Of a stretch of 64,000 nucleotides of DNA, positions 38,596 through 43,793 are shown piece after piece (the first letter of the stretch is position 1; every line of letters starts with the position of its first letter). The notes under the pieces were generated by a model. The model worked only from the letters and a program-made list of their open reading frames with translations. It was not told the origin of the DNA and ran no database searches. A program made the position numbers and the translations under genes. The DNA lies in assembly GCF_018310535.1 (NCBI RefSeq), contig NZ_CP074102.1, positions 3,658,001 through 3,722,000 on the forward strand. Reading direction: 5' to 3'. This DNA is from Streptomyces mirabilis (lineage in GTDB: Bacteria > Actinomycetota > Actinomycetes > Streptomycetales > Streptomycetaceae).

Positions 38596-40056
38596 CTAGA
38601 ACGGGAAGAAGCTGCGTCCGTGCTGGACCGAGATCCACTTCTGGGTGGTGAAGGCGTCGACGGTCGTCTCGCCGTTGAGGCGGCCGATGCCGGAGTGCTT
38701 CTCGCCGCCGAAGGGGACCAGCGGCTCGTCGTGGACGGTGCCGTCGTTGACGTGGAACATGCCGGTGTCGATCTGCTTGGCGAAGGCGACACCACGCTCG
38801 ACGTCGGCGGTGTGCACGGCGCCGCTGAGCCCGTACGGGGTGTCGTTGACGATGCGTACGGCCTCCTCCTCACCGTCGAAGGTGACGAGGAGTGCGACCG
38901 GGCCGAAGATCTCCTGCCGGAGGATGGCGGAGTCGGCGGGCAGGTCCGTCAGGACGGTCGGCTCGACGAGGTTGTCGGTGGTGGCGCCGCGCACCAGGGC
39001 CGTGGCGCCCTCGGCGATCGCCTGGTCGACCGCGCCCGTGAGCGAGTCCGCCTGGGAGGAGTTGATGACCGGGCCGATGATCGTCTGGGGGTCGCTCGGG
39101 TCGCCGACCTTCAGCGTCTTCACCTTGGCGACGAACTTCTCGGTGAACTCGTCCGCGATCGAGCGGTCCACGAGAACGCGGTTGGCGGCCATGCAGACCT
39201 GGCCCTGGTGGACGTACCGGCTGAAGACCGCCGCGTCGACGGCGTAGTCGATGTCCGCGTCGTCGAGGACCACCAGGGCGCTGTTGCCGCCGAGCTCCAG
39301 CACCGCGCTCTTGAAGTGCGAGGCGCAGACGGTGGCGACGTGGCGGCCGACCTTGTCGGAGCCGGTGAAGGAGATGACCTTCGGGACGGGGTGCTCGATG
39401 AAGGCGTCGCCGATCTCGGCGATGTCGGTGATGACGACGTTGAGCAGACCGCCGGGCAGGCCCGCGTCCTCGAAGATCTTCGCCACCAGGGAGCCACCGA
39501 CGATCGGGGTGTTCTGGTGCGGCTTGAGGACCACGCCGTTGCCGAGCGCCAGGGCCGGCGCGACGGACTTCAGGGAGAGCAGGAAGGGGAAGTTGAAGGG
39601 GCTGATCACGCCCACGACGCCGACGGGGACGCGGTAGAGGCGGTTCTCCTTGCCGTCGATCGGCGACGGGAGGATCTTGCCCTCGGGACGCAGCGCCAGC
39701 TGGATCGACTCGCGCAGGAACTCCTTGGCGAGGTGGAGCTCGAAGCCCGCCTTGAGGTGGGTGCCGCCGAGCTCGGCGATGATCACCTCGGTGATCTCGG
39801 CCTCGCGCTCCTCGATGATGCGCAGGGCCTTCTCGAAGACGGCGCGACGGGTGTACGGGTTGGTCGCGGCCCATTCCTTCTGGGTGCGCCGAGCGGCGAG
39901 GTAGGCCTCGTCGACCTCGTCGACCGTGGCTATGGTGATCGACGCCAGCTTCTCGCCGTTGTACGGGTTGAAATCGATGATGTCCCAGGAGCCGGTGCCC
40001 TGGCGCCACTCGCCGTCGATGTACTGCTGGGCCAAGTCGGTGAAGTAGGACGACAT
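38596..40056 (-). CDS. NAD(P)-dependent aldehyde dehydrogenase (benzaldehyde/vanillin dehydrogenase-like)
   Basis: A 486-residue ALDH-superfamily enzyme oxidising an aldehyde to an acid. Catalytic residues: C288 in GQVCMAANRV and E254 in VLELGGNSA. The cofactor region includes PFNFPF (153-158) and ISFTGSDKVGRHV (229-240). The overall pattern is close to bacterial vanillin/benzaldehyde dehydrogenases, but substrate choice is not certain. ATG at 40056. A 16-bp palindrome at 40124-40139 lies 68 bp upstream of the start and is a likely control site. It stands alone between terminators. Confidence 0.87.
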   Translation of the reverse strand: MSSYFTDLAQQYIDGEWRQGTGSWDIIDFNPYNGEKLASITIATVDEVDEAYLAARRTQKEWAATNPYTRRAVFEKALRIIEEREAEITEVIIAELGGTHLKAGFELHLAKEFLRESIQLALRPEGKILPSPIDGKENRLYRVPVGVVGVISPFNFPFLLSLKSVAPALALGNGVVLKPHQNTPIVGGSLVAKIFEDAGLPGGLLNVVITDIAEIGDAFIEHPVPKVISFTGSDKVGRHVATVCASHFKSAVLELGGNSALVVLDDADIDYAVDAAVFSRYVHQGQVCMAANRVLVDRSIADEFTEKFVAKVKTLKVGDPSDPQTIIGPVINSSQADSLTGAVDQAIAEGATALVRGATTDNLVEPTVLTDLPADSAILRQEIFGPVALLVTFDGEEEAVRIVNDTPYGLSGAVHTADVERGVAFAKQIDTGMFHVNDGTVHDEPLVPFGGEKHSGIGRLNGETTVDAFTTQKWISVQHGRSFFPF

Positions 40057-40123
40057 GTGCTCCCTCAATCCCCTTGCTGCCGAGGCAGACATCCGAGTCT
40101 GAGTCAGCAGACACATCCGATCA

Positions 40124-40139: not shown

Positions 40140-40244
40140 CATCGTACTTGCGTCCAAAGGGAGTTGGAGAGCACCTCCGAAGAGTCCACGAAGACTCACA
40201 GGCGAACAGACCGTGAAGACTCGCCGGAGGCGGTGGGGAGAAGA

Positions 40245-41108
40245 TCAGGAGAGCTGGAGCAGTCCCCGCAGCAGATCGCGGCTCTCGGAGGGCCCGGGGC
40301 TGTCCTGCTGCAACTGCTTGAGCGCGCCCTCGTACTGGGTGACATCCTCGCGTTTGTCCAGGTAGAGCGCGCTGGTGAGCTGCTCCAGATAGACGACGTC
40401 CGACAGGTCGGACTCGGGGAAGCTCAGGATGGTGAAGGAACCGCTCTCGCCCGAGTGGCCGCCGAAGCTGAACGGCATGACCTGAAGTCGTACGTTGGGA
40501 CGCTCCGACACCTCGATCAGATGCTGGAGTTGCCCCCGCATCACCTCGCGGTCGCCGTACGGGCGGCGCAGCGCGGCCTCGTCGAGGACGATGTGGAACT
40601 CCGGGGCCTTCTCGGAGACGAGGTACTTCTGCCGCTCCAGGCGCAGCGCGACGCGCCGCTCGATGTCGGCGGGCGAGGCGCCCCGCATGCCGCGCGCGAC
40701 GACCGCGTGGGCGTAGGCCTCTGTCTGCAACAGGCCGTGCACGAACTGGACTTCGTACGACCGGATCAGATGGGCCGCACCCTCCAGGCCGACGTAGGTC
40801 GGGAACCAGCTGGGCAGCACGTCCGAGTAACTGTGCCACCAGCCCGCGACGTTGGCCTCCTTGGCGAGGGAGACGAGCGACGTGCGCTCGGCCTCGTCGG
40901 TGATGCCGTACAGCGTCAGCAGGTCCTCGACGTCGCGCGTCTTGAAGCTCACCCGTCCCAACTCCATGCGGCTGATCTTCGATTCGGAGGCACGGATCGA
41001 GTAACCGGCCGCTTCTCTGGTGATTGCGCGCGACTCCCGCAGGCGCCGCAGATGTGACCCCAGCAGCATGCGCCGCACCACCGAGCCGCTCGACTCACCA
41101 GCGCTCAC
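40245..41108 (-). CDS. XRE-family regulator with DUF5753 domain (WhiJ-like)
   Basis: A 287-residue regulator. An N-terminal HTH_31/XRE domain (LGSHLRRLRESRAITREAAG, with recognition region ESKISRMELGR, about 15-70) is followed by a DUF5753 domain (about 90-280, with YEVQFVHGLLQTEAYA). Such proteins (e.g. WhiJ) work with small DUF397 proteins in Streptomyces development and antibiotic control. GTG at 41108 begins VSAGESSGS. The divergent RsbW-like gene and the nearby DUF397 gene complete the usual trio. An unusually A-rich stretch (about 41150-41290) separates it from the ATPase gene. Confidence 0.87.
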   Translation of the reverse strand: MSAGESSGSVVRRMLLGSHLRRLRESRAITREAAGYSIRASESKISRMELGRVSFKTRDVEDLLTLYGITDEAERTSLVSLAKEANVAGWWHSYSDVLPSWFPTYVGLEGAAHLIRSYEVQFVHGLLQTEAYAHAVVARGMRGASPADIERRVALRLERQKYLVSEKAPEFHIVLDEAALRRPYGDREVMRGQLQHLIEVSERPNVRLQVMPFSFGGHSGESGSFTILSFPESDLSDVVYLEQLTSALYLDKREDVTQYEGALKQLQQDSPGPSESRDLLRGLLQLS

Positions 41109-41304
41109 GTTCGTCAGCCTCCCCAACCGTCTTCAAGGGCCGAAGTCTGCCACTAAAACACTTCAAGCAGTACTCGTTCAGTTACAGAAACGGAAAGACT
41201 CCAAAGGGGCCACGCAGGAAAAGATCAGTAGAGGGTCAACAAGAGGGAAGAAGGTGGCAGAAGAAATGACCAAGAAAGGGTGAAGGAAGGTCTAATTCGG
41301 GCGC

Positions 41305-41332
41305 GTGCACGTGCATCTGCCCTTGCATCTGC
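41305..41332 (+). promoter_or_regulatory. 28-nt shared promoter element, copy 1 (upstream of ATPase gene)
   Basis: Contains the direct repeat TGCATCTGC spaced by CCT, preceded by GTGCACG. It matches 42401-42428 in inverted orientation at 27 of 28 positions. It lies about 75 bp upstream of the ATPase start at 41407. Being in both promoters of the locus, it is a candidate site for the XRE regulator. Confidence 0.7.
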
Positions 41333-41406
41333 TGTACGCATTCGGAACCATGGTCCTCGCGCCACCGCTGCATCGCAACGACCGCGAACACCCGGGAGTG
41401 CCTCGC

Positions 41407-41925
41407 ATGGGGACGAATGGATCGACCATGCTCGAGCCCTTACGGCAGGGACTTCCGCCGCTCGACCCCGCGGCCGTGTCCAACGCCGCTTCCTGCGCCC
41501 TGCCGGCGCGCTACGAAGCGGTGCGCGAAGCTCGGCAGTTCACCCGCAGAACGCTGGACCAGTGGGACATCGGCGAGCGCTTCGACGACGTCTGCCTGGT
41601 GGTCTCCGAGCTCGTGACCAACGCGCTGCGGCACGCCCTGCCCTCGGACACACCCCGTTCGGACGACCAAGGCCCTCCCGTCCGGCTGCACTTGATGCGG
41701 TGGACCTCACGTCTGGTGTGCGCGGTGCGCGACCCCAGTCACGACAGCCCGGTCGCGGGCGACTCGGAGGACTTCTCGGCGGAGTCGGGCCGAGGCCTGT
41801 TCCTGGTCGACTCGTTCGCCGACAGCTGGGGCTGGCACCCACTCGCGGGCACGCTCAGCGGCAAGGTCGTATGGGCGCTGTTCCGGCTTCCGCAGCCGGC
41901 CGCCGGCGGGGTTTCGACCGAATAG
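41407..41925 (+). CDS. RsbW-like anti-sigma-type ATP-binding protein (HATPase_c_2)
   Basis: A 172-residue GHKL-fold protein. N box VVSELVTNALRHALP (about 61-75), G1 region VCAVRDPSHDSP (about 100-111) and G2 region GRGLFLVDSFADSWGW (about 123-138) are all present. Such single-domain kinases bind sigma factors or phosphorylate anti-anti-sigma proteins. ATG 41407 is favoured because GGGAG lies 8 nt upstream, and because the earlier ATG (41350) falls at the likely -10 position. It is part of the XRE/DUF397 locus. A terminator follows directly. Confidence 0.83.
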   Translation: MGTNGSTMLEPLRQGLPPLDPAAVSNAASCALPARYEAVREARQFTRRTLDQWDIGERFDDVCLVVSELVTNALRHALPSDTPRSDDQGPPVRLHLMRWTSRLVCAVRDPSHDSPVAGDSEDFSAESGRGLFLVDSFADSWGWHPLAGTLSGKVVWALFRLPQPAAGGVSTE

Positions 41926-41957
41926 AGAACCGCGGCGCTTTTTGGCGCCGCGGTTCT
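41926..41957 (+). terminator. Hairpin terminator after the RsbW-like gene
   Basis: A 13-bp stem (AGAACCGCGGCGC with its complement) around TTTTTG, beginning right after the stop codon. Confidence 0.85.
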
Positions 41958-42049
41958 ACGCGCGTTACTCGCCGCGAGAAGGCAGTAGCGGTCAGTTATT
42001 CCGGTCGCCCCACTCGAATGCGCGTCCAGGCGTGTGGCGCCGACTCACG

Positions 42050-42319
42050 TCAGCCGGCGATCAGGTGGTCGAACTCGCCGTCCTTGATACCCAGGAGCAT
42101 GGCTTCGATCTCGGCGCGGGTGTAGACGAGCGCGGGCCCTTCCGGGAACCGCGAGTTCCGCACCGCCACGTCGCCACCGGGCAGCCTCGCGAACTCCACG
42201 CAGGAGCCCTGCGAGTTGCTGTGCCTGCTCTTCTGCCAGGCCACCCCGGTCAGCTCGGTCGCAGCCATGCCGTTGTACACGTCATCCAGGTCATCCACGT
42301 CGTACACGTCGTGGTCCAC
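42050..42319 (-). CDS. DUF397 protein
   Basis: An 89-residue protein. The DUF397 core runs from GVAWQKSRHSNSQGSCVEFA to AVRNSRFPEGPALVYTRAEI and ends GEFDHLIAG. DUF397 proteins partner with XRE/DUF5753 regulators in actinobacteria. GTG at 42319 is chosen because GGGGAG lies 6 nt upstream. This gives an extra Asp-rich N-terminus (DHDVYDVDDLDDVYNG) before the usual start at M18 (42268). Its promoter carries the second copy of the shared 28-nt element and a TATGAT -10 box. Confidence 0.85.
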   Translation of the reverse strand: MDHDVYDVDDLDDVYNGMAATELTGVAWQKSRHSNSQGSCVEFARLPGGDVAVRNSRFPEGPALVYTRAEIEAMLLGIKDGEFDHLIAG

Positions 42320-42381
42320 AGGTCGCTCCCCGGTCGTGCAGTGGCCGATGTGGCCATTGATGCAGTGGCCAACTGCCCCGG

Positions 42382-42428
42382 ATCATAGCTCTGTTCATGT
42401 GCAGATGCATGGGCAGATGCACGTGCAC
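42382..42428 (-). promoter_or_regulatory. DUF397 promoter with shared 28-nt element, copy 2
   Basis: On the minus strand the 28-nt element (42428-42401) is followed by TATGAT (42387-42382), a near-perfect -10. A 17-bp spacer puts the -35 position inside the distal TGCATCTGC repeat. The predicted start is near 42375, giving a leader of about 56 nt. The element would overlap polymerase binding. Confidence 0.72.
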
Positions 42429-42514
42429 GGGGGGTGGTCCCACGGTTACAGCTTTTACCGCCATTTGACTACGGCGTGTTGACCGCCCGACTACTGTCTG
42501 GTAATCGCCGGGCT

Positions 42515-42790
42515 GCGTCTGATCCAGCGTCTGCCCCGGAGAACGCATGCCATGCGATCCCCAGCCCCCGTGCATGATCTTCCGCGCCATCATCCGTGCA
42601 GGGTCGTCCGGGTCGAATCCCTCATGCATTAAGAAGAGACGCGTACCGGGCCCTTCGAGTTTCAACGTTCACGTAATGGCCCAATCCGGAGGGGTCACCG
42701 GATCGGCGTCGGCCCACCGGACGCACGGCATCCGTTCCGGCTCGTACGCGAGAATCCGCACGTCACCGGTGCCGGCGAGGCGGATCGCCC
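42515..42790 (-). pseudogene. Decayed SRPBCC (AHSA1-type) domain gene
   Basis: On the minus strand one frame reads VRILAYEPERMPCVRWADAD then PVTPPDWAIT, an in-frame TGA (42671-42669), and continues with LEGPGTRLFLMHEGFDPDDP and RMMARKIMHGGWGSH. These are recognisable pieces of the C-terminal half of activator-of-Hsp90-ATPase-like SRPBCC proteins. The N-terminal half is missing, a stop lies upstream near 42830, and the end runs into unrelated sequence. It is non-functional as it stands. Confidence 0.72.
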
Positions 42791-42946
42791 TGCGGAACGG
42801 AGGGCAGGTCTCGGTCCGGGACAGGGTTCATGACTTGCCGCCGCCGGGTTCAGTCTCGGCCTCGGCTTCGGTGTCCATGTGGTCCGGCCAGGGCCAAGAC
42901 GGGCCGAGGTCCCCTCCTACGCATGAAGCGTGTCGGCCGGGTGGGA

Positions 42947-43189
42947 TCAGCGGCCGGTGCCGGAGTACGGCAACAGCGCCAGCTCACGCGCGTTCTTGAT
43001 CGCGCGGGCGAGCATCCGCTGCTGCTGCGCGGTCACCCGGGTGACCCGGCGGCTGCGGATCTTGCCGCGGTCGGAGATGAACTTCCGCAGCAGGTCGGTG
43101 TCCTTGTAGTCGATGTACGTGATCCCGTCGCGGTCCAGCGGGTTGGGGCGGGACTTGGTGGCGGGCTTGCGTTCCGGCTTGCGGGCCAT
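42947..43189 (-). CDS. rpsR: 30S ribosomal protein S18, zinc-independent type paralogue
   Basis: An 80-residue S18: [20 protein letters not shown] and [20 protein letters not shown] followed by ARELALLPY are diagnostic. It has no Cys residues, as expected of a C- (zinc-free) paralogue. It is the last gene of a leftward set with rpmG, rpmE and a broken GTPase gene. These paralogues replace zinc-containing ribosomal proteins when zinc is scarce, usually under Zur control. Confidence 0.95.
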
Positions 43190-43192
43190 GGG

Positions 43193-43793
43193 TCAGACCT
43201 CCAGGAGGGAGTCGAAGGCGGGCGGGAGTCGCTTCCAGGCGGCGGGGCCCGCGGCGTACTCGGCGTCGGTCAACAGGCAGGACTCCAGGAGCAGTTCGAG
43301 CCCCTCGCGGTCGAGCCCCGGCGAGGTGAAGACGAGGTGCTGGCAGCAGTCGCCGTGCTCCGGGTGCCAGTCGAGCGCGGCGGCGGCGCGACGGACGGAC
43401 GGGACCATGTCCCACGCGACGTCCGGGAGCGAAGCGAGCCAGGGGCCCGCCCGCCACGACGACCTCGGCCATGGCCTTGGGCTCGACCGAGTCCCACAGT
43501 TCGACGACGGCGAGGTTCGTCAGGCCCCCATCCGCGAGGCGCCACAGCTCCGGCACCAGATCCTCGCTCAGGGCGCAGCACGCGCAGTCGTTGACGAGCG
43601 GGGTCTCGCCCGCCGACACGATGCCGGTGGCGTCCCGGATCGTACGGACGACCGTGCCCGCCGCGGCCGTCGCCAGGTCGTGGTGGAGGGCGACGCTGCC
43701 GGGAACGTCGGCGAGCAGCCGTGCGACGGCGGCCCGCCGCGCATCCGCGTGCAGGCCGCCGACGATCACGACGGAGAGGTGCGAGGACGGCAT
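43193..43793 (-). pseudogene. COG0523 (CobW-family) GTPase gene, internally deleted and frameshifted
   Basis: The first ~115 codons encode the N-terminal part of a CobW-type protein (VVIVGGLHADARR, the CACC metal motif in NDCACCALSEDL, and ELWDSVEPKAMAEVVVAG). The reading frame is then lost near 43448. The C-terminal end (GPWLASLPDVAWDMVPSVRR to AFDSLLEV) resumes in another frame with no coding sequence between. Homologues are near 380-400 residues, so roughly half the protein, including later GTPase motifs, is gone. In actinobacteria this GTPase accompanies the C- ribosomal protein cluster. Its start overlaps the rpmE stop. Confidence 0.82.

Follow-up and report, generated by a model that had tools for sequence, protein, structure and literature searches.

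Two arrays of 12-bp repeats form a candidate operator pair of a WhiJ-type regulator in Streptomyces

Regulatory genes for WhiJ, AbaA and BldB paralogs have multiplied greatly in Streptomyces. In the literature that we found, WhiJ9 of Streptomyces venezuelae is the sole WhiJ protein with a mapped repeat operator. According to the results given for it in PMC10294661, WhiJ9 binds three direct repeats, CGXXCTCAAC, located between whiJ9 and the divergent iosA, is needed for iosA activation in a bldB mutant and shows an apparent ~ 2-fold self-repression. The same results describe BldB as interacting with BldB paralogs and as not found to bind DNA, and the authors propose that abaA paralogs are likewise controlled by their WhiJ neighbours. 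Another paralog, SCO1979 of S. coelicolor, is said to bind DNA upstream of its own gene (PMC12565409). Here we describe a 64,000-nt stretch of the Streptomyces mirabilis genome (NZ_CP074102.1, positions 3,658,001 to 3,722,000; hereafter the window), in which a WhiJ-type XRE regulator, an AbaA-type ATPase and a BldB-type DUF397 protein are encoded at one locus. The ATPase and DUF397 promoters carry inverted copies of a tandem array; the arrays have a 12-bp period, are conserved, keep a fixed spacing and are restricted to this locus. Sequence comparison points to a genuine pair of putative operators that is specific to this locus, conserved in many relatives and newly arranged for an already known family of regulators.

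The original prediction described an inverted match of 28 nt, with 27 of 28 bases in common. This match is real and extends to 28 of 29 bases between the arms 41304-41332 and 42401-42429 (29 nt, 97% complementary). The inverted-repeat score of the 3.2-kb region 40200-43400 is 26, while the maximum among 500 dinucleotide shuffles is 16. The word TGCATCTGC occurs six times in the window (0.36 expected), and four of these occurrences belong to the arms, two per arm at a spacing of 12 bp. The doubled word with a 12-bp period noticed previously in each copy is thus present, but as a part of a longer structure: each copy is a tandem array of three 12-bp units (41306-41341 and 42427-42392), and so exceeds 28 nt.

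The unit is about TGCACGTGCATC, with the consensus TGC[AC]C[GA]TGCATC. Each unit contains the dyad TGC-N4-GCA, successive dyads are separated by two bases, and the palindrome TGCACGTGCA opens the array. Read toward the ATPase gene, the array is TGCACGTGCATC TGCCCTTGCATC TGCTGTACGCAT, and it is placed between the divergent XRE and ATPase genes, ~ 180 bp from the XRE start. Read toward the DUF397 gene, the other array is TGCACGTGCATC TGCCCATGCATC TGCACATGAACA, followed directly by GAGC and TATGAT. The latter had been proposed as a -10 box at 42387-42382, which was confirmed on the minus strand. No -35 hexamer was seen in the DUF397 promoter, where the array occupies the -35 place. Array features are listed below; conservation refers either to 80 named Streptomyces loci, which are the best 80 of a longer list, or to a set of 118 loci, which may count some genomes twice.

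41306..41317, plus strand: ATPase-side unit 1, TGCACGTGCATC, seen in the sequence and kept in the 80 named loci
41318..41329, plus strand: ATPase-side unit 2, TGCCCTTGCATC, seen in the sequence and kept in the 80 named loci
41330..41341, plus strand: ATPase-side unit 3, degenerate, TGC....CGCA, with a CGCA tail of 1.4-2.0 bits
41349..41354, plus strand: weak candidate -10 box CATGGT of the ATPase promoter, proposed by analogy with TATGAT opposite
42416..42427, minus strand: DUF397-side unit 1, TGCACGTGCATC, first-unit consensus TGCACGTGCATc
42404..42415, minus strand: DUF397-side unit 2, TGCCCATGCATC; such middle units number 1 to 4 across loci
42392..42403, minus strand: DUF397-side last unit, TGCACATGAACA, last-unit consensus tGCAc.TGAAca
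42382..42387, minus strand: -10 box TATGAT of the DUF397 promoter, seen in the sequence and found in 117 of 118 loci

All 295 genomes searched for the XRE protein gave a match at E 1e-60 or better, with paralogs counted in, and both arrays are present in all 80 named loci. The 16-mer GTGCACGTGCATCTGC is exact in 68 of them and has one mismatch in 12, with the same tally on the ATPase and DUF397 sides. For the pattern TGCATCTGCN3TGCATCTGC (18 fixed letters), the ATPase side shows no mismatch in 64 loci, one in 11 and 4-5 in five, the last carrying a one-base insertion; on the DUF397 side there are none in 33 loci, one in 25, two in 16 and three in six. Conservation per column in unit 1 amounts to 1.6-2.0 bits for the ATPase-side copy and 1.4-2.0 bits for the DUF397-side copy. 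The lowest values within and near the arrays (0.5-1.1 bits) include columns of the DUF397-side middle units, and certain columns just beyond the arrays are also fairly constant (1.4-1.7 bits). The 15-mer TGCACGTGCATCTGC, allowing one mismatch, was found in 392 of 392 Streptomyces genomes; the reversed control matches most of them too, so this count alone proves nothing.

Changes in length of the DUF397-side array occur in whole units. Among the named loci, 70 have three units, five have four, two have five and three have six, counts that are rounded in six loci deviating by one or two bases. The first and last units are constant, while middle units get added and drift. The distance from the array start to TATGAT is 41 nt in 95 of the 118 loci, 53 in seven, 65 in five and 77 in three, which puts 110 of 118 on a 41+12n grid. 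Seven are off the grid (42 nt in five, 40 in one, 43 in one), and in the remaining locus, L228, TATGAT was not found because the piece stops short of the site, which is visible in the family search described below. On the ATPase side, the array core starts 43 nt before CATG(GT) in 103 of 118 loci and 44 nt in five, the box not being found in ten. Whole-unit changes with a fixed promoter-proximal end would be expected of an operator for a multimeric protein. Slippage by 12 bp could also yield whole steps, but it would not hold the last unit at a constant spacing from the -10 box, which favours such an operator.

The same pattern bears on two other explanations. The array stands in for a -35 box, and the ATPase is of the HATPase_c_2 type, described as anti-sigma-like (PMC4255298), so that the array could be a -35-like element for an unusual sigma factor controlled by this ATPase. 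We regard this as very improbable: a single -35 site at a fixed distance would be expected, and three to six units in 12-bp steps suit a multimeric DNA-binding protein better. Conservation could also come from translation or action as RNA, as GTG at 41305 opens a frame into the ATPase gene and the frame 41305-41925 is open in the window. The coding form was rejected, since the distance from the element to the ATPase start varies out of frame in the 80 loci (101 in 47, 102 in 12, 100 in ten, 115 in four, others in seven). With the DUF397-side copy lying within no recognisable gene, this explanation as a whole is hardly credible.

Within the 9.6 Mb genome, TGCATCTGCN3TGCATCTGC occurs exactly three times, twice at the locus and once (C1:1976079) inside an open frame, where it lacks GTGCAC. 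Allowing three mismatches, 33 genome matches were obtained vs 91 for the reversed control pattern, i.e. no excess. A widely scattered unrelated repeat, which would have contradicted the operator proposal, was therefore rejected on the basis of the three exact copies and the position of the third.

The genome holds 22 DUF397 matches. Twenty stretches were taken (C1:4485125 was not), and two of them, L128 and L130, were dropped for want of an XRE match; L117 and L127 have partial XRE matches only. Among the 18 XRE and DUF397 loci tested in this way, an element shared before both genes was found only at the locus described here, with a score of 26 against 8-12 elsewhere, and 306 cross-locus control pairs score at most 14. 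A general rule of paired elements at loci of this kind was consequently rejected. The search for paired locus-specific elements, suggested earlier as a check, was negative at all 17 other loci tested in this genome, and the wider claim that such pairs explain the specificity of these common loci is unsupported as stated, holding in one of 18. A likely reason for the only pair is gene order: DUF397 is set apart from XRE here, and would need an array copy of its own. A period scan of the 20 loci for tandem arrays in general gave only 0.75 for this locus, a value that several others equal at positions not individually checked.

Orthologs of the XRE protein have a nearly invariant recognition-helix stretch, RASESKISRMELGRV, which is different in six aligned paralogs, whose loci are without the pair. 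In relatives of one paralog locus, L123 (30 loci, L164-L193), the divergent promoter region of the paralog XRE gene has another conserved dyad, CACTCTGAAAATTGCAGAGTG. The dyads CTTGGCAAG and CACTCTGAAAATTGCAGAGTG conserved in these promoters represent a candidate operator of another WhiJ paralog. Among relatives of L124 (27 loci, many only 54-63% alike), little is conserved in the promoter region.

Occurrence of the arrays beyond Streptomyces was followed in two ways. A search starting from the pattern in 81 genomes of the family, 15 of them Streptomyces, matched 36 genomes (all 15 Streptomyces and 21 of the 66 others), and the reversed control gave seven matches. It disclosed 26 places in other genera, of which 19 were fetched. 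Fifteen correspond to the present locus, with its XRE, ATPase and DUF397 genes (two of them showing just ATPase and DUF397 within the piece), and four (L249, L250, L260, L263) do not. Starting instead from the XRE protein, present at E 1e-85 or better in 78 of the 81 genomes, the 15 best-matching loci of other genera were scanned for arrays. All 15 have a site of at least 21 bits (reversed null at most 3.8), located between XRE and ATPase in 14 and before DUF397 in L295, which differs in gene order. Within 250 bp before DUF397, a site of at least 4.7 bits is present in 13 of 14 loci; L296 has no site in the available 146 bp, and the piece of L283 is too short to judge.

In eight of these 15 loci (L282, L284, L286, L287, L288, L289, L293, L294) the gap between XRE and ATPase contains two array sites in the same direction, 39 bp apart. 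In addition, the frame of the XRE ortholog has one TAA stop in L290 and L291, from two genomes of one genus.

At the level of the class, the XRE protein was detected at 1e-60 in 39 of 148 genomes. Nineteen ortholog loci of other families were scanned, and eight have strong sites of 23.8-45.4 bits (null at most -3.4), five in one family (three genera) and the rest in three further families. In L234, L237, L238, L241 and L242 the DUF397 gene is directly behind XRE, and a single strong site, which aligns gap-free to the Streptomyces site, lies between XRE and ATPase. L239 has two sites, one near ATPase and one near DUF397.

Combining these results, the arrays are most probably the operator of the neighbouring WhiJ-type XRE protein, with the ATPase and DUF397 genes under its common control, whichever its sign. 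This agrees with the original prediction, which read the element as the XRE operator and both genes as co-controlled, and which is well supported by comparison: arrays are kept at both promoters and stay with the XRE ortholog and its partner genes across gene orders, and a WhiJ paralog offers a precedent for the operator. By analogy with WhiJ9, the XRE protein would bind the 12-bp units, i.e. the TGC-N4-GCA dyads, side by side and probably cooperatively. Occupying both arrays, it would switch the ATPase and DUF397 genes as one unit, and the DUF397-side copy would be explained by the separation of the DUF397 and XRE genes in this family of bacteria. The DUF397 protein, a member of the BldB family, would then probably act as an antagonist of the XRE protein and so complete a negative feedback loop, as suggested by the literature on BldB and WhiJ.

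The preferred sign is activation, to which we give a little less than an even chance. The preference follows from the DUF397 promoter, in which a good -10 box is present, a -35 box is lacking and the array end is fixed a short distance upstream. A variant within the same explanation, and the main rival on sign, is that the same XRE protein acts on the same operator as a repressor, blocking RNA polymerase at the DUF397 -35 region and the ATPase promoter until released by DUF397 or a ligand. This is the model proposed for WhiJ itself, as a repressor freed by its DUF397 partner (PMC6262351), and it is in line with the array overlying the -35 place. Furthermore, in 29 of the 80 loci a sigmaE-type pattern is found 53-54 nt before the array, which would put the array just past the start site as a roadblock; this pattern is common by chance, as 65 of the 80 loci contain it in a looser form within the 320 bp searched. 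The TATGAT promoter has no -35 box to block, and WhiJ9 is needed to activate its divergent target, apart from the apparent self-repression (PMC10294661). Repression is accordingly held as a real but tentative possibility, short of an even chance.

Several observations weigh against control by the XRE protein in the form proposed. Seven of the 19 orthologs in other families have weak sites of 1.9-9.2 bits, and chance scores inside the XRE genes of L234, L237 and L238 reach 5.8-8.3, near this weak class. Four more (L230, L236, L246, L247) give no matrix match that counts, although TGCACGTGCA still occurs upstream of XRE in L236 and L247. The recognition helix of L230 and L246, neither of which yielded a site, is the same as in site-bearing orthologs, so the helix by itself is no predictor of the site. 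The distance of ~ 180 bp between the XRE start and the array makes autoregulation unclear, and a 12-bp repeat is tight for adjacent full XRE dimers. Finally, in the S. venezuelae data of PMC10294661, abaA7 and abaA10 are presented as the least responsive to BldB loss, the paralog matching the gene described here not being established.

Alternatively, a different regulator, for instance a global developmental one, could bind the array, with the XRE gene incidentally nearby. Binding by XRE is deduced from comparison, the opening palindrome looks generic, and the array is missing at some XRE orthologs outside the family. A global regulator would have further targets, however, and the doubled element is locus-specific in the genome and accompanies the XRE ortholog across gene orders, which makes this explanation improbable.

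A more elaborate form of XRE control is an expandable cooperative switch, in which a WhiJ protein would polymerise on the 12-bp dyads and the number of units would set a threshold for each species. The array would then activate the TATGAT promoter of DUF397, the antagonist of this protein, and block read-through from a sigmaE stress promoter. We consider this proposal speculative and rather unlikely. If true, the locus would weigh envelope stress against a signal sensed by the PLD-like DUF5753 domain.

Genes of the locus and their neighbours in the window are as follows.

38596-40116, minus strand: aldehyde dehydrogenase gene, flanking the XRE gene
40245..41126, minus strand: XRE regulator gene of WhiJ type with HTH_31 and DUF5753 (Pfam; NCBIfam TransRegSco1979), start codon uncertain
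41407..41925, plus strand: AbaA-type ATPase gene, HATPase_c_2 (Pfam PF13581), start codon picked by conservation
42050..42319, minus strand: BldB-type DUF397 gene (Pfam PF04149)
42947-43189, minus strand: small S18 ribosomal protein gene, beyond DUF397

XRE and ATPase genes are divergent, and the DUF397 gene is convergent with ATPase, which thus lies between XRE and DUF397. The XRE protein has the domains of the WhiJ family, an N-terminal helix-turn-helix HTH_31 (3.1e-13) and a C-terminal DUF5753 (1.2e-59), as well as its typical neighbours, AbaA-type PF13581 and BldB-type PF04149 genes. It scores 382 bits with NCBIfam TransRegSco1979, above the curated cut-off of 350. A sequence search for solved structures of the XRE or DUF397 protein found none, and a Foldseek search against PDB gave nothing at E 0.001 or better. 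A TTA codon is located near the start of the ATPase gene (window 41407-41442, the first 12 codons), and the same is true in 113 of the 118 loci. The gene is presumably dependent on the bldA tRNA.

The arrangement of the genes, the early TTA codon in the AbaA-type gene and the distribution across complex actinomycetes agree with the description of SCO3421/SCO3423/SCO3424 of S. coelicolor in PMC4255298, where the early TTA codon of SCO3423 is already noted. A published table that lists 15 XRE genes with a DUF397 gene behind them (PMC10364602) does not contain SCO3421, as the gene order described here predicts. The label TransRegSco1979 may cover both SCO3421 and SCO1979, and gene order together with the TTA codon favours SCO3421.

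The sigmaE-type pattern GGAAC-N17-CGTC, positioned 53-54 nt before the DUF397-side array in 29 of the 80 named loci, is seen for example in L047, L055, L071 and L103, and is missing in L031-L037, the named loci nearest to the window. A AAAGCTGTAA(C/T)C-like block lies between this pattern and the array in many of the printed loci. If the S. coelicolor counterparts are right, work on sigmaE gives for sco3424 a site GGGAAC...CGTC together with the number 164, presumably its upstream distance in bases (PMC6767563), and places SCO3423 among ethanol-specific sigmaE sites (PMC10771440). The pattern before the array would be in keeping with the site published at sco3424.

These results offer a base-level candidate operator for a WhiJ-type protein that occurs across several actinomycete families, and join three gene types in one proposed control circuit. 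The published proposal that WhiJ proteins control neighbouring abaA genes becomes directly testable on short DNA. A literature text search for the 15-mer TGCACGTGCATCTGC did not find it; most subscription journals and all preprints lie outside this search, and a printed sequence may be broken up.

Among described relatives, SCO1979 is a WhiJ paralog that matches the same NCBIfam model as the XRE protein studied here, but its gene is followed by a DUF397 gene in the table of PMC10364602, unlike the present locus. Candidates for type II toxin-antitoxin systems of the XRE-DUF397 type (Scr1-Scr2 and others) belong to the same protein families, and their DUF397 gene follows XRE; overexpressed DUF397 proteins of 14 such pairs are reported to show no clear toxicity (PMC10364602). 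In our locus the ATPase gene separates XRE and DUF397, which are adjacent in the five loci of another family.

Tandem operators are also bound by C proteins of restriction-modification systems (C.Esp1396I, C.AhdI), but these are small single-domain proteins without a DUF397 or ATPase partner. C proteins activate first and repress later. Arrays of met boxes bound by MetJ resemble the arrays described here in their short head-to-tail dyads, variable number and cooperative binding, but their units measure 8 bp and the protein is of the ribbon-helix-helix type.

The WhiJ9 operator is the nearest known parallel. A search for three CTCAAC words in 199 genomes yielded 30 fetched loci, five of them with a 10-bp period. 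Four of the five (L138, L150, L152, L156) adjoin a WhiJ-type gene vs one of the 25 others (L143), and three (L150, L152, L156) have the CG..CTCAAC form with this period. The repeats at the four loci are likely WhiJ9-type operators in other species. The WhiJ9 system and the present locus share an XRE protein of the WhiJ family, three direct repeats that lie between the regulator gene and a divergent target (here the XRE-ATPase gap with its three 12-bp units) and, at the same locus, a DUF397 gene of BldB type. The unit described here does not follow the consensus CGXXCTCAAC. While WhiJ9 has one array only, far upstream of the target start, the present locus has 12-bp dyad units in two arrays, one of them at the DUF397 -35 place, and a variable number of units.
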